A stretch of DNA of 39,608 bases from Prevotella sp. (GTDB lineage: Bacteria; Bacteroidota; Bacteroidia; Bacteroidales; Bacteroidaceae): contig JAFUAY010000019.1 of NCBI GenBank assembly GCA_017460515.1, forward strand, positions 1 through 39,608, read 5' to 3'. This document shows positions 4,387 to 19,741 of the stretch, one piece after another; the first letter of the stretch is position 1; every line of letters starts with the position of its first letter. The notes beneath the pieces were generated by a model. That model was not told the DNA's origin and did no database searches. It saw nothing but the letters and a program-made list of their open reading frames with translations. A program made the translations under genes and the position numbers.

Positions 4387-6951
4387 ATGACATACAGCAT
4401 TGAAAAAGTGACCACACTGATAGGTGCGCGCCGCTATGGTGAAGCCGAGGCAACCATAGGATGGCTCCTCACAGACAGCCGTTCGCTTCGATTCCCGGAA
4501 CAGACCCTGTTCTTTGCCCTGCATACACAGCGCAACGACGGACATAAGTATATCGCTGAACTGTATCGGCGCGGAGTGCGCTCGTTCGTAGTAGAGCAGG
4601 TACCTGAAGGATATGATACGCTCTTTCCCAACGCCAACTTCCTGAAGGTGCCTTCAACACTGGCGGCCCTGCAGCGACTGGCTGAGCGCCACCGTGACGA
4701 GTTCCTGGCCAGCAGCAAGAGGGGAACAGAGGTGCCTATCGTGGGTATTACGGGTTCGAACGGCAAGACCATCGTGAAGGAATGGCTCTACCAGTTGCTA
4801 TCGGCAACGAAACAACAGAAAGGCGGAATGATTACCCGTTCACCCAAAAGCTATAACTCTCAGATAGGCGTACCCCTGTCAGTATGGCTTTTGAATGAGC
4901 ATACCACTGTGGGCATCTTCGAGGCAGGTATCAGTCAGCTTGGCGAGATGCAGGCACTGCATGATATCATCCAGCCAACAGTAGGTGTATTCACCTCATT
5001 AGGTATGGCCCATCAAGAGAACTTCCGTTCGATGGAAGAGAAATGCATGGAGAAGCTACTGCTGTTTGGCGACACCGAGGCTATCGTCTATCCCAGTGAC
5101 AACGACATCGTCAGCCGTTGTATACGCAGAATGGACTTTAAAGGAGAGCGCATAGGCTGGAGCCACATGAACGAACGGGCAGAGATGTACGTGAAGAGCG
5201 TGAAGGAGAACCAGCAGGCCGAGGCTGAGGATAGAAGCAAGAGCCACACGACGACCATTACGTATATATATAAAGGTGAGCAGGGCTGCTATACCATCCC
5301 GTTCATCGACGAGGCCTCTATTGAAGATAGTATCGCCTGCGTAGCAACAGCACTCCACCTGGGAGTAACGAAAGAAGAGGTTGCCAAGCGCATGCCACTG
5401 CTGGAGCCCGTCGCCATGCGTCTGGAAGTTAAGCAGGGACAACGCGGCCTGACACTCATCAACGACTCGTATAATTCAGACATCAACTCGCTGGATATAG
5501 CACTCGACTTCATGAATCGCCGAGGCGAAGAAAAGAAGACGCTGATACTAAGCGACATCTACCAAAGCGGAGAGACCCCTACCTCACTCTACCGACAGGT
5601 GTCAGACCACTGCATTCAGCGTGGTGTTGACACTTTCATTGGCATAGGAGAGGTCATCAGCCAACAGCAAGAGCTAATCAAGGTCGAGAAGAAATACTTC
5701 TTCCCCAACGTAGAACAGTTCACGCAGAGTGAAGTGTTCCGCAACATGCACGACGAGATGATCCTGCTGAAGGGCTCACGAAACTTCGGCTTTGAGCACA
5801 TCACGGAACTACTGGAGCAGAAGGTACACGAGACCATCCTGGAGGTGAACCTGCAAGCTGTGGTCGACAACCTGAACCACTTCCGCAAGTTCCTAAAGCC
5901 TGAAACGAAGATGGTCTGCATGATCAAGGCTGACGGCTACGGCGCTGGTGCCATCGAGATAGCAAAGACACTACAGAACAATCGTGTGGACTATCTGGCA
6001 GTAGCCGTTGCTGATGAGGGCGTCGCACTGCGTAAGGCTGGCATCACAGCCAATATCATGGTGATGAATCCGGAAATGACCTCGTTTAAGACTCTGTTCG
6101 ACTATGACCTGGAACCAGAGGTCTACTCATTCCGCCTGATGGATGCGCTGATAAAAGTGGCTCGTCAGGAAGGTATCACAGGCTGGCCTGTACATATCAA
6201 GCTGGATACAGGCATGCACCGACTAGGATTCAACGTGGAAAGTGGCGAGATTGATGAGCTCATAGAAAGGCTGAAGCACCAGACAGCTATCATACCGCGC
6301 TCAGTGTTCTCTCATTTCGTAGGCTCTGACAGTGATGACTTCGACACGTTCTCAACCCAACAGTTCGAACTGTTCCAGAAGGGCAGCCAGCAACTACAGG
6401 CAGCTTTCTCTCACCATATCCTCCGACATATGGACAACTCGGCAGGCATAGAGCACTTCCCAGAACGACAGATGGACATGTGCCGACTGGGCATCGGACT
6501 CTATGGCGTAGAGCCGTATTTAAGTGAAAAGCCCAAAGGCCGAGCAGCTACCGATCCTCTGAAGACGGTGTCAACGTTAAAGACGACGATCCTACAGATG
6601 AGAAAGGTGAAGGCTGGCGACTCAATAGGCTACAGCCGTAGGACAGTACTTGACAGAGACAGCATGATAGCCGCTATCCCTATCGGCTATGCTGACGGAC
6701 TGAACCGTCGGCTGGGTAACCGTACAGGCTACTGTCTGGTGAATGGACAGAAAGCGCCCTACGTAGGCAATATCTGTATGGACGTAGCAATGATTGACGT
6801 TACGGGCATTGACTGTCAGGAAGGCGACACCGCCATCATCTTTGGCGAAGACCTGCCCGTCACCGTACTTAGCGACCTCTTAGGAACCATCTCGTACGAG
6901 GTGCTCACAGGCGTCTCGAACAGAGTGAAACGCATCTATTTCCAAGACTAA
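4387..6951 (+). CDS. Bifunctional MurF / alanine racemase
   Basis: An 854-residue fusion acting in cytoplasmic peptidoglycan synthesis. The N-terminal half is MurF, which adds D-Ala-D-Ala to the UDP-MurNAc-tripeptide; its ATP loop GITGSNGKT is near residues 120-128. The C-terminal half, from about 490, is a PLP-dependent alanine racemase that supplies D-Ala. The PLP lysine is Lys514 in MIKADGYGAG and the catalytic tyrosine is Tyr749 in GYSRR. MurF-Alr fusions are usual in Bacteroidota. The start was chosen because the promoter -7 box overlaps the earlier ATG. A strong hairpin terminator follows. Nothing appears broken. Confidence 0.95.
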   Translation: MTYSIEKVTTLIGARRYGEAEATIGWLLTDSRSLRFPEQTLFFALHTQRNDGHKYIAELYRRGVRSFVVEQVPEGYDTLFPNANFLKVPSTLAALQRLAERHRDEFLASSKRGTEVPIVGITGSNGKTIVKEWLYQLLSATKQQKGGMITRSPKSYNSQIGVPLSVWLLNEHTTVGIFEAGISQLGEMQALHDIIQPTVGVFTSLGMAHQENFRSMEEKCMEKLLLFGDTEAIVYPSDNDIVSRCIRRMDFKGERIGWSHMNERAEMYVKSVKENQQAEAEDRSKSHTTTITYIYKGEQGCYTIPFIDEASIEDSIACVATALHLGVTKEEVAKRMPLLEPVAMRLEVKQGQRGLTLINDSYNSDINSLDIALDFMNRRGEEKKTLILSDIYQSGETPTSLYRQVSDHCIQRGVDTFIGIGEVISQQQELIKVEKKYFFPNVEQFTQSEVFRNMHDEMILLKGSRNFGFEHITELLEQKVHETILEVNLQAVVDNLNHFRKFLKPETKMVCMIKADGYGAGAIEIAKTLQNNRVDYLAVAVADEGVALRKAGITANIMVMNPEMTSFKTLFDYDLEPEVYSFRLMDALIKVARQEGITGWPVHIKLDTGMHRLGFNVESGEIDELIERLKHQTAIIPRSVFSHFVGSDSDDFDTFSTQQFELFQKGSQQLQAAFSHHILRHMDNSAGIEHFPERQMDMCRLGIGLYGVEPYLSEKPKGRAATDPLKTVSTLKTTILQMRKVKAGDSIGYSRRTVLDRDSMIAAIPIGYADGLNRRLGNRTGYCLVNGQKAPYVGNICMDVAMIDVTGIDCQEGDTAIIFGEDLPVTVLSDLLGTISYEVLTGVSNRVKRIYFQD

Positions 6952-6973
6952 GGAAATAAAGCATACAAACACT

Positions 6974-7008
6974 AAAAAAGGCTCTGACAATCGTCAAAGC
7001 CTTTTTTA
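6974..7008. terminator. Bidirectional terminator between murF-alr and the tubulin-like operon
   Basis: AAAAAAGGCT...AAGCCTTTTTT with inner TGAC/GTCA pairs forms a stem with A and T runs on both sides. It ends the convergent murF-alr transcript (+) and the eight-gene operon (-). Confidence 0.85.
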
Positions 7009-7027
7009 TATATGAGTTTCAGACAAA

Positions 7028-7834
7028 TCAGCCTAATTCCTTCTCCAGATCATCATCGCTTGGCATCTGGTCAAGGCTCTTACTCTTGTCTTCAGGAAGA
7101 ACGGTAGCCTTTGCAATATCGTTGGCAACACCGTTGGCCTCCTGAGCAAGCTCTTCGGGAGTCTTACCAGTGAATTTCTTCACCACCTCTTCGTATTCAG
7201 GCGACTCGGCAGTAATTTCCTTCACATAGTAGCACTCGTTCAGCTTCTCAGCAACGGCAGGAGAGAATCCAATCTTAGTAGGATCGCTGATGGCACCATC
7301 CTTCACAGCCTTCCACTTACGAGAGTTGCCAATCCACTTACCACGAACAGCCTTGATAGACTCGATACCCGACTGGATAACAGCAGGACCACCCTTCACA
7401 TACTTAGCAAACTTCAGTGCCTTAAAGCCCAGCTGAGGTAAAGCCAGGGCTGCAGTAGCAGAACCCAGACCAGCGCTGGTCATATCCAGCACGATATTGG
7501 CACCCATCGTCACTGCCTGAACGCACTGCCAGTTGACAGTACCACGGGTCAACAGCTGTCCCTGTGAATCCTCCATCCAGTTGAGCTGATAATACTTTCC
7601 GTTGATGCAGAGTGTGGTATCTTTCAGCTGGTACTGTTCCAGATTATCCTTATAGTCACGAACCTTGTTGTAGAGTGTGTCAATCTGCAAGAGATATTTA
7701 TCGATGGTCTCGTTACCGCTTGTGGTACCATCCCACTCCCACTTGATCTCGTTCTTGTCCTTCTTGGCAGCAGATACCTGCATCTGACTACCGAGCGTCA
7801 GCATTGCCAACGCCAAAAACAGAATTTTCTTCAT
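7028..7834 (-). CDS. Exported protein of unknown function (last gene of tubulin-like operon)
   Basis: A 268-residue protein with a signal peptide (MKKILFLALAMLTLG...VSAA). It is charged near the mature N-terminus. A Gly/Ala-rich hydrophobic stretch lies near residues 105-150 (VTMGANIVLDMTSAGLGSATAALALPQLG), which could insert in or pack against a membrane. The C-terminus is acidic (DKSKSLDQMPSDDDLEKELG). No family is recognised. It sits 43 bp behind the preceding gene and ends at the shared terminator at 6974-7008, so it should be co-transcribed with the tubulin-like gene. Periplasmic or outer-membrane location is inferred from the signal peptide; no lipobox is seen. Confidence 0.85.
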   Translation of the reverse strand: MKKILFLALAMLTLGSQMQVSAAKKDKNEIKWEWDGTTSGNETIDKYLLQIDTLYNKVRDYKDNLEQYQLKDTTLCINGKYYQLNWMEDSQGQLLTRGTVNWQCVQAVTMGANIVLDMTSAGLGSATAALALPQLGFKALKFAKYVKGGPAVIQSGIESIKAVRGKWIGNSRKWKAVKDGAISDPTKIGFSPAVAEKLNECYYVKEITAESPEYEEVVKKFTGKTPEELAQEANGVANDIAKATVLPEDKSKSLDQMPSDDDLEKELG

Positions 7835-7877
7835 AATGTTTTGTGATTATAACAAATTTATAAAAGTTGTTTGATTC

Positions 7878-9317
7878 TTAATACTTATCCTTAACCACGA
7901 TATCCAGTCGGGTCTGACCTTCCGCTACAGGGTGAGCATCATCTTTCTCGCCCGTGACGTAGATATACAGCGGCTTGATATGATCAGGCTTCACCACCTG
8001 ATAGGTTCCATCGTCATTGATCCTACCAATATAATGGCTCTGGCCTGACTGGATGGTAGCATTGCTGGTGGCATAGACGCGCATCTTGTTGAACGGGATG
8101 GCCATATACTCATTCTTGAAGGAGACCCTTCCGCTGAGCGTCTCGCGCTGCTTGGTCACCACCTGTTCGGTAACGTTCTGTCCCTTGGGGTGCTTCTGCA
8201 GACGGGCAATGAGCTCATCACGAATCTGCTGCACCTTTTTGATTTCCGGATGCGACTGCAGGATGCGGTCGGCAAAGCGTGCCTCACCACCCAGGTAGCG
8301 ATAGACCTCGTCACACTCAAAGCCTTTCTCGCTCTCAAACTGACGGGCTTTCTTGTCAGCCATCTCCATGAGATAGGTTGTGCGACGGATGCTCGCCATT
8401 GTATCACGCTCAGCACGGATAGCCTCCAACTGTGACTGCGGACAGTCCTTATGTTCAAGGGCCTTGTCGTAGGCAATGCGGGCAGCATCATAGAAACTGC
8501 TCTCAGCATGCTGGGGATAGTCGGCCCAGTACTCACGGGCAGTAGTGATCAGCTCGTCGAAGGTGGCCTCCTTGAAAGCTGTCTTGATGGCGGGCGATAC
8601 GGTGTAGGGAATCTTCACGTTAGAACCCACCGTCTCCATATCGGCAGCAGGCATCTGAACGACGTTGGTACCATCGCCATAGACCTTGATGGTGCTCTTC
8701 AGGATTTCCTGATAAACAGGCTGATTGCCTTCCTTGGCAGCCTTGAGCGCGTGGGTATCAATGATCACCTGGATGATGTTGGCACCTGTTGCTGACTTGG
8801 AGTGATTGATCTTGTACTTCAGGTTCTTACTGGGTTCAACCTTCAGGTCGCTCAGTTCAGTCGTGAACTCAATGCAGGCCTCACCCTGAACGAAGTGGGC
8901 TGCACCATGCATGCTCTGCTTGACCATCTCCAGGAAAGTCTGCCACGAAGCCAGTCCCTCCACGAGGAAGGTCAGCTTATGATTGGGTTTCAGCCCCTTC
9001 TTGACAAGGGGGGCAGTCATAAAGGTAGTACCCTTACGAGAGATATTGAAACGACGCTCCTTGGAGGTCGAGATATCCAGGAGCATGGAGTAGACATACT
9101 CGCCCTTACCATTGGCCTTAGCCTCTGGAATGGCATCGCTGGGGTTGTTGGTCTTGATAATCAGGTCTTTGGTACGAGCAATGAAGTCAACCCCCGACTT
9201 ACCACCGAGGTTCACATCAGCCTCCTGCATTTTCTCCTTATCAATGGTCAGCTCGTCTTGAGCCTGCATGGGGAGAGCGAGCAGGATGCCCGCCAGAAGA
9301 TAGAGAATCTTTTTCAT
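7878..9317 (-). CDS. Exported protein with TPR-like helices and a beta-sandwich-like C-terminus
   Basis: A 479-residue protein with a signal peptide (MKKILYLLAGILLALPMQAQ). The first 250 residues are probably beta-rich. A helical stretch (ADYPQHAESSFYDAARIAYDKALEH... to about 370) resembles TPR-type hairpins. The last 85 residues (LSGRVSFKNEYMAIPF...DIVVKDKY) look like the transthyretin-like or carboxypeptidase-regulatory fold common in exported Bacteroidota proteins. A TTG codon three codons upstream is in frame, but ATG 9317 gives the normal signal peptide. It lies within the tubulin-like operon, with 38-47 bp gaps. The function is unknown and the fold assignments are by eye. Confidence 0.85.
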   Translation of the reverse strand: MKKILYLLAGILLALPMQAQDELTIDKEKMQEADVNLGGKSGVDFIARTKDLIIKTNNPSDAIPEAKANGKGEYVYSMLLDISTSKERRFNISRKGTTFMTAPLVKKGLKPNHKLTFLVEGLASWQTFLEMVKQSMHGAAHFVQGEACIEFTTELSDLKVEPSKNLKYKINHSKSATGANIIQVIIDTHALKAAKEGNQPVYQEILKSTIKVYGDGTNVVQMPAADMETVGSNVKIPYTVSPAIKTAFKEATFDELITTAREYWADYPQHAESSFYDAARIAYDKALEHKDCPQSQLEAIRAERDTMASIRRTTYLMEMADKKARQFESEKGFECDEVYRYLGGEARFADRILQSHPEIKKVQQIRDELIARLQKHPKGQNVTEQVVTKQRETLSGRVSFKNEYMAIPFNKMRVYATSNATIQSGQSHYIGRINDDGTYQVVKPDHIKPLYIYVTGEKDDAHPVAEGQTRLDIVVKDKY

Positions 9318-9364
9318 ATCATTCAAACTTTAATGAGAATCGTCATCGTGAGCGCGACAACGGA

Positions 9365-10372
9365 TTACAGGTCGAAATCAGTAAGTGAGAAAATCTCGTC
9401 CTGATCCATCTTCTTACCACCCACATACTCAGGCTGCCAGGTGCGAACATGAATCTGAGGAGCATCCTCGTTGGTGAAGTCCCACAACAGGAACACATAT
9501 CCGGTATCGCTGTAGTTGCTGGACTTCCACTCCTGGCGCAGACGGACACCATACATATTCTTATTGTTGACAGAACGAGTCACAGTTCCGCAACCGCCTT
9601 CCTCACCATTATCGCCAATCTCGGAGAATTTCACGTCGATATACTTATTACGGTTGAAGGCATTCTGAAGATTCTTCAGATACTGTTCCTTGGTCTGCTG
9701 AGTATAGGTCACCTTCTGAGACATACCGCCTTCGGGTTTCTTCACTGTGATGACATTACCCGTGATAATCAAGGCATCATCGCTGAACACCTGCTTCAGG
9801 AAGGCCATATCCTTCGTACAGTAAGCCGTACGGAAACGGTCGCAATACTTCAGGATCTGCATCTTACGCTCCAGTTCAACCACAGCACCGCACTTCTCCA
9901 TGCTCTCTGAGAGCTGGGTATCAAAGACGAAACGAAGGTCGGTAATTACGCCCTGCTTATTGAACTCAACGACACACTCCTGATAGGTGCCGGAGCCGAA
10001 CTGTTCACCCTGAGGATTCATAATCAGGGGAATCTGACGGAGCATATAGCCATTCTTCAAGGGCCAGCAGCGGTCAACGACCTCGCTGTCGTCACAATAG
10101 AAATGGATGTTGTTCCACAACTGCACGAGCGTTCCCTTGGCAAAGTGGTCAAGAGCCAGGCCGCCCACGTTGAGAGCACGGTTCTCGCTGTTGGCAGTAT
10201 TGATTTCAGAGAGTACCTTACCCAGGTTACGCTGCATGGTCTCAATAATGCCGCCCGTATTCTCAAAGCCTTGGTCAGTTGTAATCGTTACGGTAACTTC
10301 TTCGGCCTGCATAGTCGTCATAGAACAGAGTGCCATGAAAAGGAACAGACCTTTCAGAAAAAACTTTTTCAT
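9365..10372 (-). CDS. Exported protein with an NTF2-like domain
   Basis: A 335-residue protein with a signal peptide (MKKFFLKGLFLFMALCSMTTMQA). From about residue 165 to 320 the pattern LKYCDRFRTAYCTKDMAFLK, then FSDDALII and later strands ending ...QIHVRTWQP, matches the layout of SnoaL/NTF2-like cone domains, which bind ligands or serve as scaffolds. The N-terminal half is of unknown fold and includes several cysteines. It sits mid-operon, 32 bp after the preceding gene and 47 bp before the next ATG. NTF2-like is a moderate call; no catalytic role is claimed. Confidence 0.85.
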   Translation of the reverse strand: MKKFFLKGLFLFMALCSMTTMQAEEVTVTITTDQGFENTGGIIETMQRNLGKVLSEINTANSENRALNVGGLALDHFAKGTLVQLWNNIHFYCDDSEVVDRCWPLKNGYMLRQIPLIMNPQGEQFGSGTYQECVVEFNKQGVITDLRFVFDTQLSESMEKCGAVVELERKMQILKYCDRFRTAYCTKDMAFLKQVFSDDALIITGNVITVKKPEGGMSQKVTYTQQTKEQYLKNLQNAFNRNKYIDVKFSEIGDNGEEGGCGTVTRSVNNKNMYGVRLRQEWKSSNYSDTGYVFLLWDFTNEDAPQIHVRTWQPEYVGGKKMDQDEIFSLTDFDL

Positions 10373-10404
10373 ATCTTATACGATTAATGATTCGTTTATA
10401 TTGT

Positions 10405-11118
10405 TTAGTCATTGACAATCACACCAAAGGCACCGCGGCCAGGATAGTTCTTCACATCATCAGCCTGCTGAGTGCGCAGGTTGCTGCGTGAGGCACCATC
10501 GCTGAGCAGCGCCTCGATATTGCCCTCTTTGTTATAGATGATGAGCACGTACTTCTCAGGCGAACTGAGTTCCTTGTACTTGGCATACTCACCGATACGT
10601 CCTTCCTGCTTGAGTTGCTTCAGCATGTTGGGCAGCTCAGCAAACTTCTTCAGCGTCAGCAGGCGCTGATAGGTCTCCGTGCGCTTGGCTGAGATGGCGG
10701 GCTGAACGGGAGCCGCAATGACGTTGCCTTTCTCATCGACCTTCACCGTGTTGGCACGAACCTCAATCTTGCCAGCAGGGAGGATATCGTCTTTCTTCAC
10801 ATACTTGAAGGCGCGGAACATATTGCCACGAGGCAGGCTGACGCTTTCAATCACCTCCTCACGATTGCGCAGCACGATATTTTCAGCCGTACGCAACTTC
10901 TTCTGTTCAGCAATATACTTGTTGATCTCCATGTTCAGCATATCCTCAGCCATATCGAGCGAGGTCTGCTGGTCATTGGTTGTTATCTCAGCATAAAGGT
11001 ACGCATTGTCCTTCTTAATACTGTTAATCTTCTTTTTCTGCTCTTCTGTAGAGGTCTGGGCAAAGGCTGCCGCAACAAACAACAACAGGAGAGAGAACAC
11101 ATAAATTCGTCTGTTCAT
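10405..11118 (-). CDS. Exported protein, unknown function
   Basis: A 237-residue protein with a clear signal peptide (MNRRIYVFSLLLLFVAAAFAQ). The mature N-terminus is highly charged and probably alpha-helical (about 25-95), with coiled-coil tendency. The C-terminal half has short strands (KYVLIIYNKEGNIEALLS) and a Gly-rich end. No family is recognised. It starts 12 bp after the preceding gene stops, so tight coupling in the operon is very likely. It is probably periplasmic. Confidence 0.85.
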   Translation of the reverse strand: MNRRIYVFSLLLLFVAAAFAQTSTEEQKKKINSIKKDNAYLYAEITTNDQQTSLDMAEDMLNMEINKYIAEQKKLRTAENIVLRNREEVIESVSLPRGNMFRAFKYVKKDDILPAGKIEVRANTVKVDEKGNVIAAPVQPAISAKRTETYQRLLTLKKFAELPNMLKQLKQEGRIGEYAKYKELSSPEKYVLIIYNKEGNIEALLSDGASRSNLRTQQADDVKNYPGRGAFGVIVND

Positions 11119-11130
11119 TCTGCGTAGGTA

Positions 11131-12222
11131 TTATTTCTTGTTTTGTTGAAAGAAACGATCCGACACGTTGTGCATCGGGATATAGACATAGAGTCGTCCA
11201 GAGATAGTGCCATTACCCTTATCGGCAATGGTCTTTGCAGGAATAACGGCAGAGAGCATGTGGACATAGCCGCCACGACGGTTGACCAGCATGACCGTTC
11301 CCGTATAGGAGCCGTCTTCCTTACGTTCCTTGATACCGAAATAGGGGGTACATCCATCCTCAATGGTCATATTGAGCAGATTCTTGTATGGAACAACGGC
11401 CTTGTCAGTCTCATAGCCATACTTGTCGATGGTGAGATCCAGCGTAGGATTGCCCCTGAACTGTGTGCTCAGCATCATGTTGGGCACCATCTTCGAAGCC
11501 ACATCAGACTTGTCGGACAGGTACCAGTCCTTGCCACTACGTTCAAAGAAGAGGTCGTTGCGCATCTCGGCAATGAGGAAGGAGTCGCCCTTGGCAACAT
11601 AAGCATTGCCCGATTCCGGGAAGATGTCGACATCACTGCCTGTATCAATGAGCTTATGGCGCTTCAGGCGGCGAAGGAACTGCTGTTCCAGTTCGATGGC
11701 ATTACAACCCGTAAGCATCTCAATATCCATATCGAACGAGATTTTCAGCACTTCACGCCCGCCTCGTGTCCAAGTGACACGATAGCGTTTCAGGTCGACA
11801 CGCTCCTCAGAGAAGTTCTCGTCACCCTTAAATGTGAAAGGCGTATTGGCACTACCCACCACGAAGGTGAGATGCTCACTGTTCAGCTTGTGACGAATCT
11901 CGCCATCAAGATTGGTGAGCTGACGCTCCAACAGGTCACGTTCCAAGAAGTCGTAGACAGGCGACGGTGACAGTTCGACCAATTCTTTGGGGAACAAAGC
12001 CAGTCCGATATGCTCTATCTCACCAAAGCGGTTGGCCCTTACCACCAGCTTCTTGCCACGATACTGATAATCGTAGCTGGTCTGGTTGTTCAACTCATCG
12101 ATACCTGGCAGTGAAAGACACTGGGCAATGCTCTGCAACCGCTTGGTTGCAAAATTGGCTGCGCTGACGGACAGCAAGCCCGCCAGCAGCAGCATTGTGA
12201 TCATAACCAGTCGGTGCTTCAT
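11131..12222 (-). CDS. Exported protein, unknown function
   Basis: A 363-residue protein with a long signal peptide (MKHRLVMITMLLLAGLLSVSAA). The mature part is rich in beta-strand-like segments and has no recognised motif. A TTG codon three codons upstream (12231) is in frame, but ATG 12222 gives a normal signal peptide. It lies 46 bp after the zinc-ribbon gene and 12 bp before the next. Its place among exported partners of a tubulin-like protein is the only clue to function. Confidence 0.85.
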   Translation of the reverse strand: MKHRLVMITMLLLAGLLSVSAANFATKRLQSIAQCLSLPGIDELNNQTSYDYQYRGKKLVVRANRFGEIEHIGLALFPKELVELSPSPVYDFLERDLLERQLTNLDGEIRHKLNSEHLTFVVGSANTPFTFKGDENFSEERVDLKRYRVTWTRGGREVLKISFDMDIEMLTGCNAIELEQQFLRRLKRHKLIDTGSDVDIFPESGNAYVAKGDSFLIAEMRNDLFFERSGKDWYLSDKSDVASKMVPNMMLSTQFRGNPTLDLTIDKYGYETDKAVVPYKNLLNMTIEDGCTPYFGIKERKEDGSYTGTVMLVNRRGGYVHMLSAVIPAKTIADKGNGTISGRLYVYIPMHNVSDRFFQQNKK

Positions 12223-12268
12223 ACGCTTCAAAAAGAATGTTTAACCGTGGTTGGAAAATCGTTTCAGC

Positions 12269-12898
12269 TTAGATCACCTTGATACCCTTGACGACAACAG
12301 CATTGCCATCCTTCTTGTACCAGGTGCCCATGTTCACATAACCATCACGGAACACGCCCTCGATTGTCTCACCGGGCTGTGCCGTCTCACCATTGATTGT
12401 GGTGGTGCTGGTAATGCGCAGGATACCATTTCCATGAGGCTTGCCTTCAGCATTGCGGGCACCTTCATACTTACCCCAGCTAGGGTTCTTGGCTGACGGA
12501 GCGGGCTTGGCGGGAGCAGGATCAGCCTTCTTGGGTTCAGGCTTTGCTGCCTCTGGAGCGGGAGCCTCTGGAGCTTCAGGTGTAGCCACAGCAGGTGTGT
12601 CAACCTTCTGAGAGTCTACTGCCTCAACAGGAGCTTCAGCGGGCTGCTCTTCACCGCCACTGAGGGCGATAGCAGCACCGCCACCGCCTAATATCAGCAC
12701 AGCGGCTGCAATGATTCCGATCTTCTTCATATCCATACCCTTCTTTGGAGGAGGACACTCGCGGAGCGGCTTACCGCACTCTGCACATACGAGTTCCTTA
12801 CGGGCTGGTATTTCCTGTACTTCCTTTGATTTGCACTTCGAGCAGCTGTCATTCAGACAGATACCATATCTGAAGCGCACACGTTCTTCTCTTGCCAT
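12269..12898 (-). CDS. Zinc-ribbon, single-TM protein with a MORN-like C-terminus
   Basis: A 209-residue protein of unusual layout. Residues 14-48 hold a zinc ribbon (Cys14, Cys19, Cys22, Cys38, Cys41, Cys48). Residues 49-57 are Pro/Lys-rich (PPPKKG), and 59-80 form one transmembrane helix preceded by Lys-Lys, which predicts the ribbon inside the cell. Residues 83-150 are a long Ala/Pro/Glu linker. Residues 152-209 contain a MORN-like motif (YEGARNAEGKPHGNGILRI, then GVFRDGYVNMGTWYKKDG). Inference: it links a cytoplasmic partner, possibly the adjacent tubulin-like protein, to the periplasm. It lies behind a terminator-like hairpin at 12942-12961. Confidence 0.88.
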   Translation of the reverse strand: MAREERVRFRYGICLNDSCSKCKSKEVQEIPARKELVCAECGKPLRECPPPKKGMDMKKIGIIAAAVLILGGGGAAIALSGGEEQPAEAPVEAVDSQKVDTPAVATPEAPEAPAPEAAKPEPKKADPAPAKPAPSAKNPSWGKYEGARNAEGKPHGNGILRITSTTTINGETAQPGETIEGVFRDGYVNMGTWYKKDGNAVVVKGIKVI

Positions 12899-12941
12899 TT
12901 TCTTATTTGAAATTTAATTGTTTGTATTGGGGTTAAAAGAA

Positions 12942-12961
12942 GGTGGGAGACAGCTCCCACC
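12942..12961 (-). terminator. Intra-operon hairpin (attenuator) after the tubulin-like gene
   Basis: On the minus strand GGTGGGAG-CTGT-CTCCCACC forms a perfect 8-bp GC-rich stem followed by TTCTTTT. It lies 11 bp after the tubulin-like stop and 43 bp before the next gene. It probably terminates part of the transcription or protects the 3' end of the upstream message. No strong new promoter is seen behind it. Confidence 0.7.
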
Positions 12962-12972
12962 CTATTGATTCA

Positions 12973-15900
12973 TTACATTGCTGGGGGAGGAGGAGGCACT
13001 GAGCCGGGTCCTGGAGGAGGAGGAACAGCGCCTGGAGCGGGAGGTGCGGGTGCAAACAGCGGCTGCAACTCAGGCACCTGTCCGGCAGGAGTCCAACCTG
13101 GCAGCGAAGCCATCCATACCAAGCTCTGGGCGGTGATGCTTCCTGCCTTTACGTACTGCTCTACCTGGTCGTAGTTGTAAGGACCATACTGCTGTCCGCC
13201 TACGCTCAGGTGCAGTTGAATCTGAGGCTTGACGAATGCTCCGGGAGGGGGAGGAGGAACGGTTCCACCAGGAGGAGGCGGGGGAACGCCAGGACCACCC
13301 ATGGGAGCTGCTGCCTGTTGTGGAGCGAATCCCTGTGGCTGCTGTGGAGCGAATCCCTGAGGCTGCTGTGCTGCCTGACGTGCGGCACGAACCTTCTCGA
13401 TCTCGGCCTCGCTGAGTGCGAAGAGTGAAGGCAGGTCTTTGCCGTCGCCCTCGCTATGGAGCAGGATAGAGTTGACCACATCGGTAGCGCTGTTGCCTGT
13501 GTTGAGGAAGCGATCATAACGCTCCTTGTAGGTTGACAGCCAGTCGATGGCGCGCAGCGGGAAGCAGTACTGGATGGTGATCACTGACAACTCATCCTTA
13601 CGCTGGCTCTGCTTGTTGATGATAATGCTATTCTGGGCAGCGCCATTACCAAACTGGCTCTTGAAGGCGTCCTCCAACTTCTGGGCAAACTTGCTCAGGT
13701 TGGGGTTATCATCAGGTGAGGGGAAGGACACGAGAATGGTCTTCTTGTTGACTGAAGCGGGGTTGGTAGGACTCAGGGGGCCCTCGTTGTTGCGCAGGTG
13801 CAACTGCATCTGGTCGTTGTTCAAACGCAGATAGACGCCACTCTGACGCACGATCTTAGAAGCGAACTCCTTGATATCGTCTTCCGTCTTCAGCTTCTGC
13901 TGCAGCTGGGTGAGGATGTTCAGTCCGAGCACCTTCTCGTCGCTGTCGGCCTTCTCGTCATGCTTAGCCTTGACAATCTTTGACAGCTTGATATCGAATG
14001 CATCTGTCACGTCATCGATGCTGATGTCAGCAGCCAGGCGTCCGAAGTTGACGAAGTCGCCCTGTGGCAGGATGCTCTCACGAATCTGACGGGCAATGTT
14101 AGGCATATCGATCTTGTCAGTCTTCAGGTCTACCTCAAACTCGCCCATAGCTTCTTCCTCGCTGACCTCAACGATGGCGCCACGCATGTCTTCCAGACCC
14201 TTGTTCACCTTCTTCTGAGCAGCAACCAGGCGCTCGGTTTCCTCGATGGCCTCGTTGATCTTCTGCGAGAATGCCAGGATATCGGCATCCATCTTGCCCA
14301 GTTCTACGAACACCTTGGCAGCAAGCTTCTTGGCGAACTCGATAGCCACCAGCTGGGTTTTCAGCTCGTAATAGTCAGTCAGGATGTTCTGGTGGTCAGC
14401 ATAGCGACGGGCACCTACACCCACCATGCGCTGCAGAATGCCCAGACGACTCCACTCGTTCACGTTGGCATCGCGATCCTCATCGGTAGCATCGTAGTTC
14501 TCCTTGAGTTCCTTGGTGCGGCTCTCCAGCTCCTGACGAATCTCGCCCATGCGCTCCAACAGGAGTTTAGACACCTTCTGGAGTTCAACGATAGACACAT
14601 CGCCCACCTTCCACTTATCAAACAGCGTGTTCTCAATCTTGTAGCGAATCTCCTTCGAAATCTCAGGAATAGCGCGCTCCTTGCCTGCATAGAAGGCCTC
14701 AACACCCTCCTCGCGGAAGTGCTTCTCATAGAACTCAGCCAGGATATTGTCGAGCTCGTTCAGCGGACAGTCGGCCTTCTTGGCTTCCTCGGCATAGGCA
14801 ATCGACTTGTCGTGCCAGTAGTCGTTGAACGAAGGATAGTCGGCATCGCTCTCCAGCACCTTAGCCTCATAGGTCAGGTGACGCTCGTCCAGGTTCCATG
14901 CCTGAAGGTTGTCGCTGTTCAGGTAGTCCTTGCGGTAGTCCTTGTTGCGCTCCTCGTCGACGAAGCCCTGGTTCTCGCGCCAGTTGTTGTACTTAAACTG
15001 GTAGAGCACGCTCTCGCCCACGGTATAGGTGATGTGCTTCAGCACGCGCAGCTCTGGATACATCACGCGCTTGATGCCGATAGAGTTCACCTTCTTGGTG
15101 CGAGCCACGGGAACCTTTCCGCCTTCGCGATCGGCAGCCTCGTCAAACTCGTTGGCGAAGTCGTCCATATTTTCATAATTGTACGCGCGCAAGATGTCAC
15201 CAAAGTGCTTGTCGTCCTCTTCGTTGATGAAGAAAATACGGGCGAAGATATAGTCACTCAGAATCTTGGGCAGTTCGCTGAGCGAGTTGACAGTCATACC
15301 GTTCTCGTTCACGTTGCTGTAGACGGTAAGACCGTTTGCTACGCCATGAACGGCATCGGTATAGATATTCTTGCTGATGGGACCGGTGCCAGTCACGTCC
15401 TGGGGGAAGAAGCGACCTGCCTGGATAGCGTTCAGCTCATTGATGGCAGCATAGCCGTTCTGATAGTAGCGTCCCTGGTCCATATTGCTCTTCGGCAGGT
15501 TCATCTCAGGAATCATACAGTAGACAGAGATGATGGCATCGGGGAAGGTCTTACGAGCCTGCAACAGGGCATCGACGACAGAACCTGAACCAGTACCACC
15601 GCACAAGCCTGCGAAGATATAGATGTACTTCTTGTTGGCATCGCCAGAAATAGCCTCGCAACGGGCATAGGCATCCTTCAGCGCGTTCACGTAAGCCACA
15701 GCATTGGCAGCGAAGAGCAGACGACCTGCGCGACGCTTCTGACCAGCAGCCTGACCCAGCGAACCGATTGCTGAGCGCACGGCTTCAGCATTCTCAACGA
15801 TACCCTTTACGGCAGGATAGTTGCCGATATGATCGAGGATATGCTCTACGTCAACAGCCTTGATGTTCAAGAATTCCTTCGGAGTGAACGATGCATCCTG

Positions 15901-16116
15901 TCCCATCACGCGGAAGTCGGCACGGGCACGACCGTCCTTCGGCATCATTTCGTCAGTAGAGTCTACATAGAGTAGTGCCACTGGCAGTTTGCGCTCTTCA
16001 GCCGTTGGAAACTCTTCGAACAAGCGCATTTTGAATTCACGGAGAATCTTACCTCCGGTACCTCCCAATCCCACGAGGATATGGTTGGCAGTGCAGAAAC
16101 TTTTTGATGTTGCCAT
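12973..16116 (-). CDS. Tubulin/FtsZ-like GTPase protein with C-terminal GYF_2 domain
   Basis: A 1047-residue cytoplasmic protein. Residues 10-23 (HILVGLGGTGGK) form a Rossmann-type first strand and phosphate loop. Residues 169-179 (AGLCGGTGSGS) carry GGTGSG, the tubulin/FtsZ nucleotide signature. NMDQGRYYQNGYAAINEL (211-228) resembles the following nucleotide-contacting helix. This fits the poorly known 'Tubulin like' family (Pfam Tubulin_2) rather than FtsZ. Residues about 480-700 are long charged helices, probably coiled coil. A Gln/Pro linker has two QQPQGFAP units and two PPPPPG tracts. A GYF_2 domain (966-1021; GGQQYGPYNYDQVEQYV...LVWMASLPGW) follows, then a PPPPG-rich tail. I found no convincing T7 catalytic loop. 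It is the second gene of the operon. Confidence 0.9.
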   Translation of the reverse strand: MATSKSFCTANHILVGLGGTGGKILREFKMRLFEEFPTAEERKLPVALLYVDSTDEMMPKDGRARADFRVMGQDASFTPKEFLNIKAVDVEHILDHIGNYPAVKGIVENAEAVRSAIGSLGQAAGQKRRAGRLLFAANAVAYVNALKDAYARCEAISGDANKKYIYIFAGLCGGTGSGSVVDALLQARKTFPDAIISVYCMIPEMNLPKSNMDQGRYYQNGYAAINELNAIQAGRFFPQDVTGTGPISKNIYTDAVHGVANGLTVYSNVNENGMTVNSLSELPKILSDYIFARIFFINEEDDKHFGDILRAYNYENMDDFANEFDEAADREGGKVPVARTKKVNSIGIKRVMYPELRVLKHITYTVGESVLYQFKYNNWRENQGFVDEERNKDYRKDYLNSDNLQAWNLDERHLTYEAKVLESDADYPSFNDYWHDKSIAYAEEAKKADCPLNELDNILAEFYEKHFREEGVEAFYAGKERAIPEISKEIRYKIENTLFDKWKVGDVSIVELQKVSKLLLERMGEIRQELESRTKELKENYDATDEDRDANVNEWSRLGILQRMVGVGARRYADHQNILTDYYELKTQLVAIEFAKKLAAKVFVELGKMDADILAFSQKINEAIEETERLVAAQKKVNKGLEDMRGAIVEVSEEEAMGEFEVDLKTDKIDMPNIARQIRESILPQGDFVNFGRLAADISIDDVTDAFDIKLSKIVKAKHDEKADSDEKVLGLNILTQLQQKLKTEDDIKEFASKIVRQSGVYLRLNNDQMQLHLRNNEGPLSPTNPASVNKKTILVSFPSPDDNPNLSKFAQKLEDAFKSQFGNGAAQNSIIINKQSQRKDELSVITIQYCFPLRAIDWLSTYKERYDRFLNTGNSATDVVNSILLHSEGDGKDLPSLFALSEAEIEKVRAARQAAQQPQGFAPQQPQGFAPQQAAAPMGGPGVPPPPPGGTVPPPPPGAFVKPQIQLHLSVGGQQYGPYNYDQVEQYVKAGSITAQSLVWMASLPGWTPAGQVPELQPLFAPAPPAPGAVPPPPGPGSVPPPPPAM

Positions 16117-16178
16117 AATTTATGATTGTTTTAAGATAATGATTTTCATTATGAATGGTTTGTAAGAGAATTCCTTTC

Positions 16179-16835
16179 TCAGCGACGATGGCTCACACGA
16201 CGCAGATCGCGCCCCACCCGCTCGCTGGTCCGACTGCTGCCGCGACGATCCAGACGATCCGTATTGCGCTGGCGAATATTGCTGTTACTCTGCTTCTTGA
16301 TAGTCAAGATAGCAATGATGCCCAGCACGATGGCGAAGCCCAGAGCCCACAAGACACGACGCCAGATAAAGGCGCTAAGAAGTTCTCTAAGATAATCAAT
16401 CAAACCATGAGGAAGGTCACGAGCAGCATAGCCTTCACCCCAGATATAGCCACTACCCTCAATGCTAGCACCATAGATGGCGCCCAAATAGTTACGAATG
16501 AGCGGATATTCATCCATAATCTCGCCAAACATCTCAATACTTGCCTCTTTCGGGACAATCTCGCCTGGACGGTAACGAGAATCAACGATTTCAGTCAGCA
16601 TCTGCTCGTACTCATCACACGAGCTTTTGATTTTCAATGCACCTACCATTAAAATACATTGAAAAGCAAGCAAGATGGCCAGTACTACACCCGTCACGTA
16701 GGTCCACACGGTGAAAAGGGCATCTTTCCACCAACCGCGTACTATAAATATGAACAAACCTACCATAGCGACAGCCATCAGGATGCCCCAGAAGATGCTT
16801 GACGCAGCGAATTGAAGTATGCTGAAAAATATCAT
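16179..16835 (-). CDS. Inner-membrane protein with arginine-rich cytoplasmic tail (first gene of tubulin-like operon)
   Basis: A 218-residue integral membrane protein. Hydrophobic segments lie at about 5-32 and 41-67. A hydrophilic region (70-150) contains many acidic and aromatic residues. A third segment lies at about 157-178 and is followed by a strongly basic tail (RQRNTDRLDRRGSSRTSERVGRDLRRVSHRR region). By the positive-inside rule the tail is cytoplasmic. It could contact the acidic body of the tubulin-like protein encoded 62 bp downstream, or nucleic acid. No family is recognised. It follows a textbook promoter at 16900-16930, so it leads the operon. Confidence 0.87.
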   Translation of the reverse strand: MIFFSILQFAASSIFWGILMAVAMVGLFIFIVRGWWKDALFTVWTYVTGVVLAILLAFQCILMVGALKIKSSCDEYEQMLTEIVDSRYRPGEIVPKEASIEMFGEIMDEYPLIRNYLGAIYGASIEGSGYIWGEGYAARDLPHGLIDYLRELLSAFIWRRVLWALGFAIVLGIIAILTIKKQSNSNIRQRNTDRLDRRGSSRTSERVGRDLRRVSHRR

Positions 16836-16899: not shown

Positions 16900-16930
16900 C
16901 AAATATAATAGTTTTTTTTAGCAAGACAAA
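16900..16930 (-). promoter_or_regulatory. Promoter of the tubulin-like operon
   Basis: On the minus strand TTTG (16930-16927), exactly 19 nt, then TATATTTG (16907-16900). This is the full Bacteroidota consensus, 64 nt before the first ATG. The 11-bp repeat array begins 55 bp upstream of it. Confidence 0.85.
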
Positions 16931-18939: not shown

Positions 18940-18961
18940 TGTCACCTGGAAGCTGAACAAG
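18914..18961. repeat. 25-bp tandem duplication of the cysS 3' end
   Basis: A 23-nt identical word starting GTGTCACCTGGAAGC occurs at 18914-18936 and again at 18939-18961, period 25 bp, spanning the cysS stop. The second copy, read on the minus strand, encodes the last residues (CSASR) and stop of the convergent peptidase gene. Confidence 0.9.
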
Positions 18962-19712
18962 CGAATGCTTCTTTTGTCATCTCAACGGCTAACGTTTTCC
19001 TGGCAAAAGACTTAAAGGATAGGAAATCCAATCCATCATTCGGACGATTGGAGCCCCACGAGTTCTTCATCACGAAGCCTGGGGCTCCCTTTTCGTTATG
19101 GCCTATTCCAACGATTGCCATCGCATGGTTCTTGCTCTCCCAGCACACCCCGTGATGCTGACGGACAGCACGTTCAGTCTTCGCCAACAGCGAATCCATC
19201 GGGATATTATAGAATCGGTTGTGGAGCCAATTATCAGGCAGGTCGATGTCAACATACTGATAATAAGGCTGTTTATCGGTACTGGTGAGGGCGATATACT
19301 CATCAGGGGCACACACGCTGCGGGCAAACTCAAGTGGCGTATAGGTGACACCCAACATAAAAGCATGCTTCGGTGGAATATCGTCAGCAGACTTCATGGC
19401 ATCGTAGGGCACCACTCCATGTTGCTGAATCAGCTGGAGCAAGGTGGCACCCATACCCCGTTTCGACTGCGGTGCCTGCGGATGCTGTTCTACCACGCGC
19501 TCTATCCATGCTACCGACAGGTGAACGGAGTCGCCCCGCATGATATGTTCCGTCTCGATGGCTGCAAGCATCGCATAAGCCCAACAGGTCTGGTTCTTGC
19601 CCTGATTCTTGACGGGTGTATAGCTGTTCATCATATCAATGGAGAACCGCACCTCACGCTGATGACAGCCCATGAGGAGCAACACCATTATTATATAAAG
19701 TAAGCGCTTCAT
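18942..19712 (-). CDS. Papain-like (C1-type) cysteine peptidase lipoprotein
   Basis: A 256-residue predicted lipoprotein (MKRLLYIIMVLLLMGC, lipobox Cys16). The papain-type motifs are Gln37-x5-Cys43-Trp (NQGKNQTCWAY), His196 (NHAMAIVGIG) and Asn217 (MKNSWGSN), the canonical order. It is probably anchored at the envelope and degrades peptides or modifies surface proteins. ATGs at 19715 and 19712 are equally possible; a TTG at 19724 is less so. It follows the nuclease gene by about 30 bp and likely belongs to the same operon. Its last five codons are a duplicated piece of cysS, so the original C-terminus has been replaced. Confidence 0.88.
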   Translation of the reverse strand: MKRLLYIIMVLLLMGCHQREVRFSIDMMNSYTPVKNQGKNQTCWAYAMLAAIETEHIMRGDSVHLSVAWIERVVEQHPQAPQSKRGMGATLLQLIQQHGVVPYDAMKSADDIPPKHAFMLGVTYTPLEFARSVCAPDEYIALTSTDKQPYYQYVDIDLPDNWLHNRFYNIPMDSLLAKTERAVRQHHGVCWESKNHAMAIVGIGHNEKGAPGFVMKNSWGSNRPNDGLDFLSFKSFARKTLAVEMTKEAFACSASR

Positions 19713-19741
19713 CATCTCAATCAATCAGAGTGAGCCTTCCG

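Follow-up and report, generated by a model that had tools for sequence, protein, structure and literature searches.

What does a tubulin-like GTPase do in an operon whose other products sit in the membrane or are exported? The question is raised by a stretch of 39,608 nucleotides from Prevotella sp. (contig JAFUAY010000019.1; the whole stretch is called the window below), in which eight minus-strand genes, designated A to H, occupy positions 7028-16835. Gene B encodes a Tubulin_2 protein. The function of this family has been an open question since 2010, and the operon offers a defined gene unit for its study. Our principal new result is that tubulin is missing from some gene sets that hold the exported D and F, the linker gene C and in many cases E. 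The data point to signalling or to control of the envelope more than to cell division. The explanation we favour, to which we would give an even chance, is a device for control or sensing that spans the envelope; C would be the socket for any of several cytoplasmic modules, the tubulin-like GTPase being one of them.

Gene B (12973..16116, minus strand) had been read in a preliminary description of the window as a 1047-residue protein with the tubulin-type motif GGTGSG, and this identification stands. The protein matches Tubulin_2 (PF13809) with an E-value of 1.9e-42 and 146.2 bits against a curated cut-off of 27, and GGTGSG, which forms the T4 loop, is present in all 88 B proteins compared (distinct over their first 600 residues). 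The T1 loop GLGGTGG lies within the first 60 residues of 81 of these 88, the window's B included. Pfam Tubulin (PF00091) remained below its cut-off, at 22.9 bits versus 33, and alignment of B by hhalign to 17 FtsZ-type proteins from related genomes covered 67 columns with a probability of 26%. The predicted structure, a check proposed in the preliminary description, displays a tubulin fold that aligns to the whole CetZ/tubulin chain (residues 9-878/902). B thus consists of a GTPase part (about 9-376), a mainly helical part (about 395-780), a C-terminal alpha/beta part (about 785-900), a proline-rich linker and a GYF_2 domain (969-1017, E 8.6e-15 in Pfam). Tubulin_2 and GYF_2 were the only Pfam matches above curated cut-offs in the eight genes, A and C-H having none. 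The model suggests that the tubulin fold is complete in Tubulin_2 proteins and surrounds a large insert, helical for the most part; no relative of the insert stood out in a fold search, which was uninformative on the insert's own fold. Motif and fold together predict that B binds GTP at T1-T4, and by analogy with other tubulin-fold proteins it may assemble. The modelled arrangement was not visible to the analysis of 2010 and would make polymerisation directly testable.

One Tubulin_2 gene was counted in the window's genome, which is 65% complete. Elsewhere, second, degenerate tubulin-like genes with T1 or T4 altered or missing lie near the main one (L182:1363-3687, L183:1355-3679, L220:13038-15623, L174:13021-14706); they are possibly inactive partners.

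Searching genome contigs with B, we obtained 61 loci, nearly all labelled Bacteroidales or Bacteroidetes and mostly from metagenome genomes; the labels Clostridium (L058) and Clostridiales (L069) may be binning errors. Single-linkage clustering of all open reading frames (ORFs) called at these loci returned eight large families, each corresponding to one of the eight genes of the window: B is found in 53 loci, D in 51, A, C and F in 49 each, G in 47, E in 45 and H in 29, and the next family in 6. The G and H families are loose, with direct matches to the window's G in 27 of 65 members and to its H in 16 of 29. All eight genes were called in 22 of the 61 loci, each time in the same order and on one strand, and among the 59 loci where genes of A-F were called, 58 preserve the order A-F, the exception (L029) having a second, shorter tubulin-like ORF downstream. 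The eight genes are thus conserved together, a point on which the preliminary description had called for a neighbourhood survey. These locus counts are lower bounds because the greedy ORF caller overlooks some genes and several loci run into a contig end. The cytoplasmic B is the most conserved protein and the last exported genes vary most: mean pairwise identity in the 22 complete loci is 0.72 for B, 0.52 for F, 0.36 for A, 0.35 for C, 0.33 for E, 0.29 for D, 0.24 for H and 0.22 for G. Named isolates carry the unit as well, for example Phocaeicola faecium (L051), with A-H, and Xylanibacter brevis ATCC 19188 (L018), with A-F plus two G genes.

The distribution is patchy. Tubulin_2 exceeds its cut-off in 8 of 60 genomes of the genus, the window's included, at 9 loci: three are of the A-H type (the window, L078 and L079) and six are different operons without C-H. 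The operon is therefore not a core envelope function. At the level of the phylum, 10 of 395 genomes, again including the window's, carry Tubulin_2 above cut-off; eight other contexts were fetched, of which one is A-H (L159), one has B and C (L157) and six have neither C nor D-H. In L079, the best match of B in the set is only 30% identical (L072), and its F is 75% identical to another F. A vWA label for the six other genus loci was not adopted: L080 falls just under the cut-off at 1.2e-4, L081 gives 0.007, and the candidates in L074, L075, L076 and L077 gave nothing at 0.01 in Pfam, with DxSxS-like strings seen by eye in some. L074 also encodes, beside its different Tubulin_2 gene, a 1162-residue partner with a papain-like Peptidase_C1 domain (5264-8752). 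Plasmid carriage was discarded, with one distant match among 72,556 plasmid records.

Two genes encode membrane proteins. Gene A (16179..16835, minus strand), whose product had been noted as a membrane protein at the head of the set, encodes 218 residues with three hydrophobic segments and an arginine-rich tail, as expected of an inner-membrane protein; it gave no transporter match above cut-off in Pfam. Gene C (12269..12898, minus strand), our proposed connector, reads as a zinc ribbon, the motif ECPPPK, a transmembrane (TM) segment, a variable linker and a MORN-like domain predicted to be extracytoplasmic. The preliminary description had announced a zinc-ribbon/TM/MORN protein. The first two parts are borne out by cysteines 14/19/38/41, invariant across 22 aligned homologues, and by one hydrophobic segment at 59-82; MORN itself was detected with Pfam at E <=0.1 in 11 of the 22 homologues and not in the window's own copy. 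Past the TM segment, C homologues carry PBP and OmpA domains or TPRs, which fits an orientation with the zinc ribbon inside and the C-terminus outside.

B and C form the most widely shared and deepest pair of the set, as they occur together without D-H on a Paraburkholderia megaplasmid (L155) and in a distant genome of the phylum (L157). The Paraburkholderia B homologue (L155:9872-13716) is 27.8% identical over 82% of B, and the C encoded with it ends in TPRs. In L157, a C homologue (5339-6916) directly follows the B homologue and combines a zinc ribbon with PBP_like_2 (E 6.9e-28) and OmpA (E 8.7e-17); this contig ends 1 kb after C. Presence of GYF in B and of PPP in C agrees in 71 of 79 pairs (43 with both, 28 with neither, 5 with GYF only, 3 with PPP only), 9 of the 88 B rows having no called C and the GYF profile having been built with L072 left out. 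We would guess from these sequences that the GYF tail of B contacts the PPP motif just before the TM segment of C.

The products of D (11131..12231), E (10405..11118), F (9365..10372), G (7878..9326) and H (7028..7834), all on the minus strand, start with signal peptides, which we read by eye from a basic start, a hydrophobic stretch and an A-x-A-like end; five such proteins had been predicted at the outset. Their annotation comes through co-occurrence only. F is the best conserved of them, and its C-terminal part gives a weak NTF2-like hint (DUF4440 at 0.017 and Cds6_C at 0.081, both below cut-off). G is the most variable: its homologues (33 aligned, E up to 0.1) include PEGA in 8, CarboxypepD_reg in 7, FGE-sulfatase in 5 and Sel1 in 4, and TPR is also found. 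Many H homologues have a middle rich in glycine and alanine. Profiles of D, E, F and G gave nothing convincing against solved structures, the best values being 0.021 for D, 0.058 for G, 0.19 for E and 0.22 for F. We do not claim E as LPP20-like, which 1 of 36 members would suggest at 0.0096. Exported proteins of about 600 residues that end in the C-terminal domain of F were also seen (L152:4545-6359, that one with LPP20, L153:7027-8871 and L154:8352-10208); they adjoin PEGA/FGE-sulfatase or G-like proteins and form a further relative set.

Operons that hold D or F but no tubulin were met in genomes of the genus, the order and the family. In the genus, 11 of 60 genomes gave the F profile a near full-length match, at 12 loci in total: three have tubulin, eight have other genes around D/F (one of them, G047, on a contig of 4.4 kb), and the twelfth, G039, is cut by the contig end before D. 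The neighbours in these D/F operons include LytTR (7.8e-12), FHA (6.4e-8), caspase C14 (6.2e-19), PP2C (3.1e-14) and Ser/Thr kinases (5.7e-33 and 7.2e-42). In the order, the D profile matched 10 of 294 genomes, the window's included. Four of the nine other loci have tubulin (L159, L165, L166, L171); L172 encodes a fusion of a kinase (4.7e-28) to C, L170 a fusion of TIR_2 (3.5e-14) to C with MORN at 5.8e-6, and in L167-L169 the first gene of the D operon encodes an exported TPR/Sel1-like protein, export again being judged by eye. In the family, F matched 117 of 399 genomes (completeness >=85%, the window's own left out). Among the matches listed, 72 loci with near full-length F were fetched: 44 have B, TPR genes are found at 15, kinase-C fusions at 4 and a caspase gene at 1, and 8 are other or cut (L190, L193, L201, L209, L213, L221, L225, L227), L193 holding the end of a B. 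The TPR, kinase and caspase labels in this survey come from phmmer at E 1e-4, with seeds from loci typed earlier with Pfam. E often accompanies C, D and F where tubulin is missing.

How the cytoplasmic module may be attached was suggested by a 67-residue profile of the outer domain of C. It matched 62 of 1547 surveyed ORFs, 49 of them from the C family. Each of the 13 others belongs to an operon that has D or F: 11 immediately precede D, and two (L148 and L149, the weakest matches at 3.3e-4 and 8.4e-6) are placed elsewhere in the operon. The match forms the end of a kinase protein in L146, L172, L148 and L149 and the end of a TIR protein in L170; Pfam was run on L146, L149 and L172, and the L148 kinase is assigned by its similarity to that of L149. 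These fusions indicate that the inner domain is exchanged and that the TM-MORN part stays, together with D/F. On a tree of 122 F proteins (81 tubulin, 18 TPR, 6 kinase, 5 FHA, 1 TIR, 1 caspase and 10 unclassified rows that were not counted, leaving 112 classified), the front-end module changes at least 7 times, 3 of these changes being between tubulin and another module. A careful tree of 114 rows, which omits eight long or suspect rows (the TIR row, three of the six kinase rows, three tubulin rows and one unclassified), gave at least 6 changes, with 2 for tubulin versus other. Module exchange is thus supported but infrequent.

These results bear on the earlier suggestion of a cytoskeletal NTPase that organises or drives an envelope process. 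The connection to the envelope is upheld by the connector C and its PBP/OmpA or TPR homologues. Tubulin cannot be the obligatory engine, since the exported genes are found without it, and the kinase, TIR and FHA/LytTR modules in its place indicate signalling as much as force. In the control device that we favour, B would be a cytoplasmic nucleotide-binding protein of tubulin fold, and C would span the inner membrane with the zinc ribbon inside and the MORN-like domain outside. The exported D-H would work with the outer domain of C, a proposal that their shared occurrence supports; G, as the most variable, would be the best candidate for contact with the outside or with a ligand. B would take the place that a Ser/Thr kinase or TIR, fused straight to the TM-MORN part of C, has in the sister operons. 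It would meet C at the inner face, with the zinc ribbon as the obvious partner because in the fusions a kinase or TIR replaces it. By assembling under the membrane in a GTP-dependent way, B could then cluster or release C through the zinc ribbon, perhaps with GYF on the PPP of C, and its own state would be linked to that of the outer complex. Sensing from the outside in would fit the kinase, LytTR, FHA, PP2C and TIR modules, and control of the envelope from the inside out would fit a filament. A narrower and more tentative proposal is that the tubulin-fold GTPase is the cytoplasmic signalling module of a transmembrane receptor-like device, a tubulin relative whose task would be to relay signals, as opposed to dividing the cell, partitioning DNA or setting cell shape. 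According to the species, one set of exported sensor parts with the TM-MORN connector would be wired to a kinase, to TIR, or to a free tubulin-like GTPase docked on the zinc ribbon of that connector. Gene C would be a concrete inside-outside connector, for which kinase, TIR or no module provide natural alternatives and controls for the role of tubulin.

Several observations weigh against this control device. Hydrolysis and polymerisation by B are putative, the fold comes from a single structure model, and the catalytic T7 loop of B could not be located. The tubulin-versus-other changes on the F tree are few, and well-supported branches force 2 of the 3, or 1 of the 2 after omission of the suspect rows. 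The co-occurrence of GYF and PPP traces back to a single event on the tree, and L161 (6032-9658) encodes a distant Tubulin_2 protein that has a GYF tail with neither C nor D-H beside it; we consequently dropped GYF-PPP docking as a demonstrated interaction and keep it as a conjecture. Finally, the exported core also accompanies either an exported TPR protein or a lipoprotein-like C that has a MORN-like end and no cytoplasmic part, beside D, F, G and H and without B (L221:7788-8510, L227:7347-8102). No cytoplasmic partner was seen in these versions, so signalling across the membrane is not obligatory for the exported core.

GltJ of Myxococcus combines a zinc ribbon and a GYF domain. Among solved structures, the GYF of B is nearest by sequence to that of AgmX (GltJ) (7z3c, E 1e-6), and FHA, autotransporter-like and OmpA-like proteins are listed for the Glt envelope machine in the part of PMC3169522 consulted. 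The eight genes differ in that Pfam finds in them neither a motor (MotA/TolQ/ExbB-type) nor an MglA-type GTPase domain, and the operon's other envelope genes have no Pfam match of the Glt kind.

A membrane-remodelling or cytoskeletal machine, in which B filaments shape or position the envelope with D-H as anchors or tools, seems rather doubtful to us. It follows the prediction made when the family was described as FtsZl1 (Makarova & Koonin 2010, PMC2875224); a Bacteroides caccae sequence appears in an alignment legend there. As far as we found, the earlier statement that no function is assigned in Bacteroidales was right. The Tubulin_2 domain, GGTGSG, the extended helical part and the membrane or exported neighbours of B recall FtsZl1. 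Its usual, though not universal, partners vWA, GTPase, kinase and OmpA were not found by Pfam among the eight genes; the absence of vWA and MoxR, pointed out earlier, holds at E up to 1. In the available sections of PMC2875224, T6-H7 or a tubulin-like C-terminal domain were not found, whereas the B model aligns to the entire CetZ/tubulin chain, and neither the GYF tail nor genes C-H belong to the description. A 2023 phylogeny of FtsZ and tubulin keeps the divergent Tubulin_2 group apart and roots a tree with it, according to the part of PMC9871819 at hand. The full tubulin fold of the model would suit filaments, which according to the authors of PMC2875224 are formed by all superfamily members characterised by 2010, and a mixed polymer could include, as inactive partners, the degenerate second B copies that a few loci have. 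Against such a machine, C, D, E and F also occur with a kinase, TIR, TPR or no cytoplasmic module seen, and the genus distribution is patchy (Tubulin_2 in 8 of 60 genomes, 3 of 9 loci of the A-H type).

We consider it unlikely that the operon serves conflict or defence in the manner of the NTP-dependent conflict systems described by Kaur et al. 2020. C would then pass an outside trigger to an effector in the cytoplasm, be it TIR, a caspase-like protein, a kinase or a division-disturbing tubulin-like protein. TIR and caspase genes do occur in sister operons, and G diverges fast and changes domains. The GAP1-N2 systems of that study, in the portion of PMC7159879 consulted, offer a parallel with their non-overlapping tubulin, HSP70 and kinase/zinc-ribbon/PP2C themes. 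The Bacteroidales set resembles their plan in the alternation of the tubulin and kinase/zinc-ribbon/PP2C themes, in TM segments with PEGA, NTF2 and GYF, and in a near-membrane role. It is without their core features: the TRAFAC GTPase and GAP1 at their centre and the FNIII and vWA components all go unmatched by Pfam in the eight genes, and TIR or kinase fused to a TM-MORN connector was not encountered for them in the same text. The best matches to the PADLOC anti-phage models reach only E 0.013 and 0.031, and no neighbour family beyond the eight occurs in more than 6 of 61 loci. A viral origin was discarded as well: scanning viral contigs with the alignment of B gave 138 pattern matches, of which none was confirmed. 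B is also the most conserved of the eight genes, unlike what is expected of an effector. Least probable, and in our view very unlikely, is an ordinary export or assembly pathway for a surface product with B as the scaffold that places the exporter. The five exported proteins and the outer-membrane barrel domains in G-like genes of the sister operons L141 and L142 speak for it; against it, Pfam finds no transporter, chaperone or ATPase domain in the eight genes, and A has no transporter match above cut-off.

We found no report of this Bacteroidales operon in the open-access literature, preprints lying outside its coverage. ORF, pattern and stem searches reproduced the layout first proposed, with gaps of 12-74 bp, one promoter and one terminator; from A to H the gaps are 62, 74, 37, 12, 32, 38 and 43 bp. 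The promoter (16900..16930, minus strand) is of the Bacteroidales type TTTG-N-TAnnTTTG, and the pattern TTTG-N(17-21)-TAnnTTTG has 6 matches in the whole window versus a mean of 0.31 in shuffles. The terminator (6973..7008, minus strand) has a 16-pair stem and, lying between two convergent genes, may serve both. Between B and C, a GC-rich hairpin (12942..12961, minus strand) is followed by TTCTTTT, a tail read by eye; it is possibly a partial terminator within the operon and may reduce expression of C-H relative to A-B. No empty site between murF-alr and cysS was seen: in none of 19 further loci (two being short fragments) from 20 genomes of the genus was murF-alr found within about 1.5 kb of cysS, and we do not claim mobility. 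Outside the operon, a gene for a papain-like cysteine protease (window 18942-19724) stands beside cysS, and its relatives adjoin cysS in 3 of these 19 loci.

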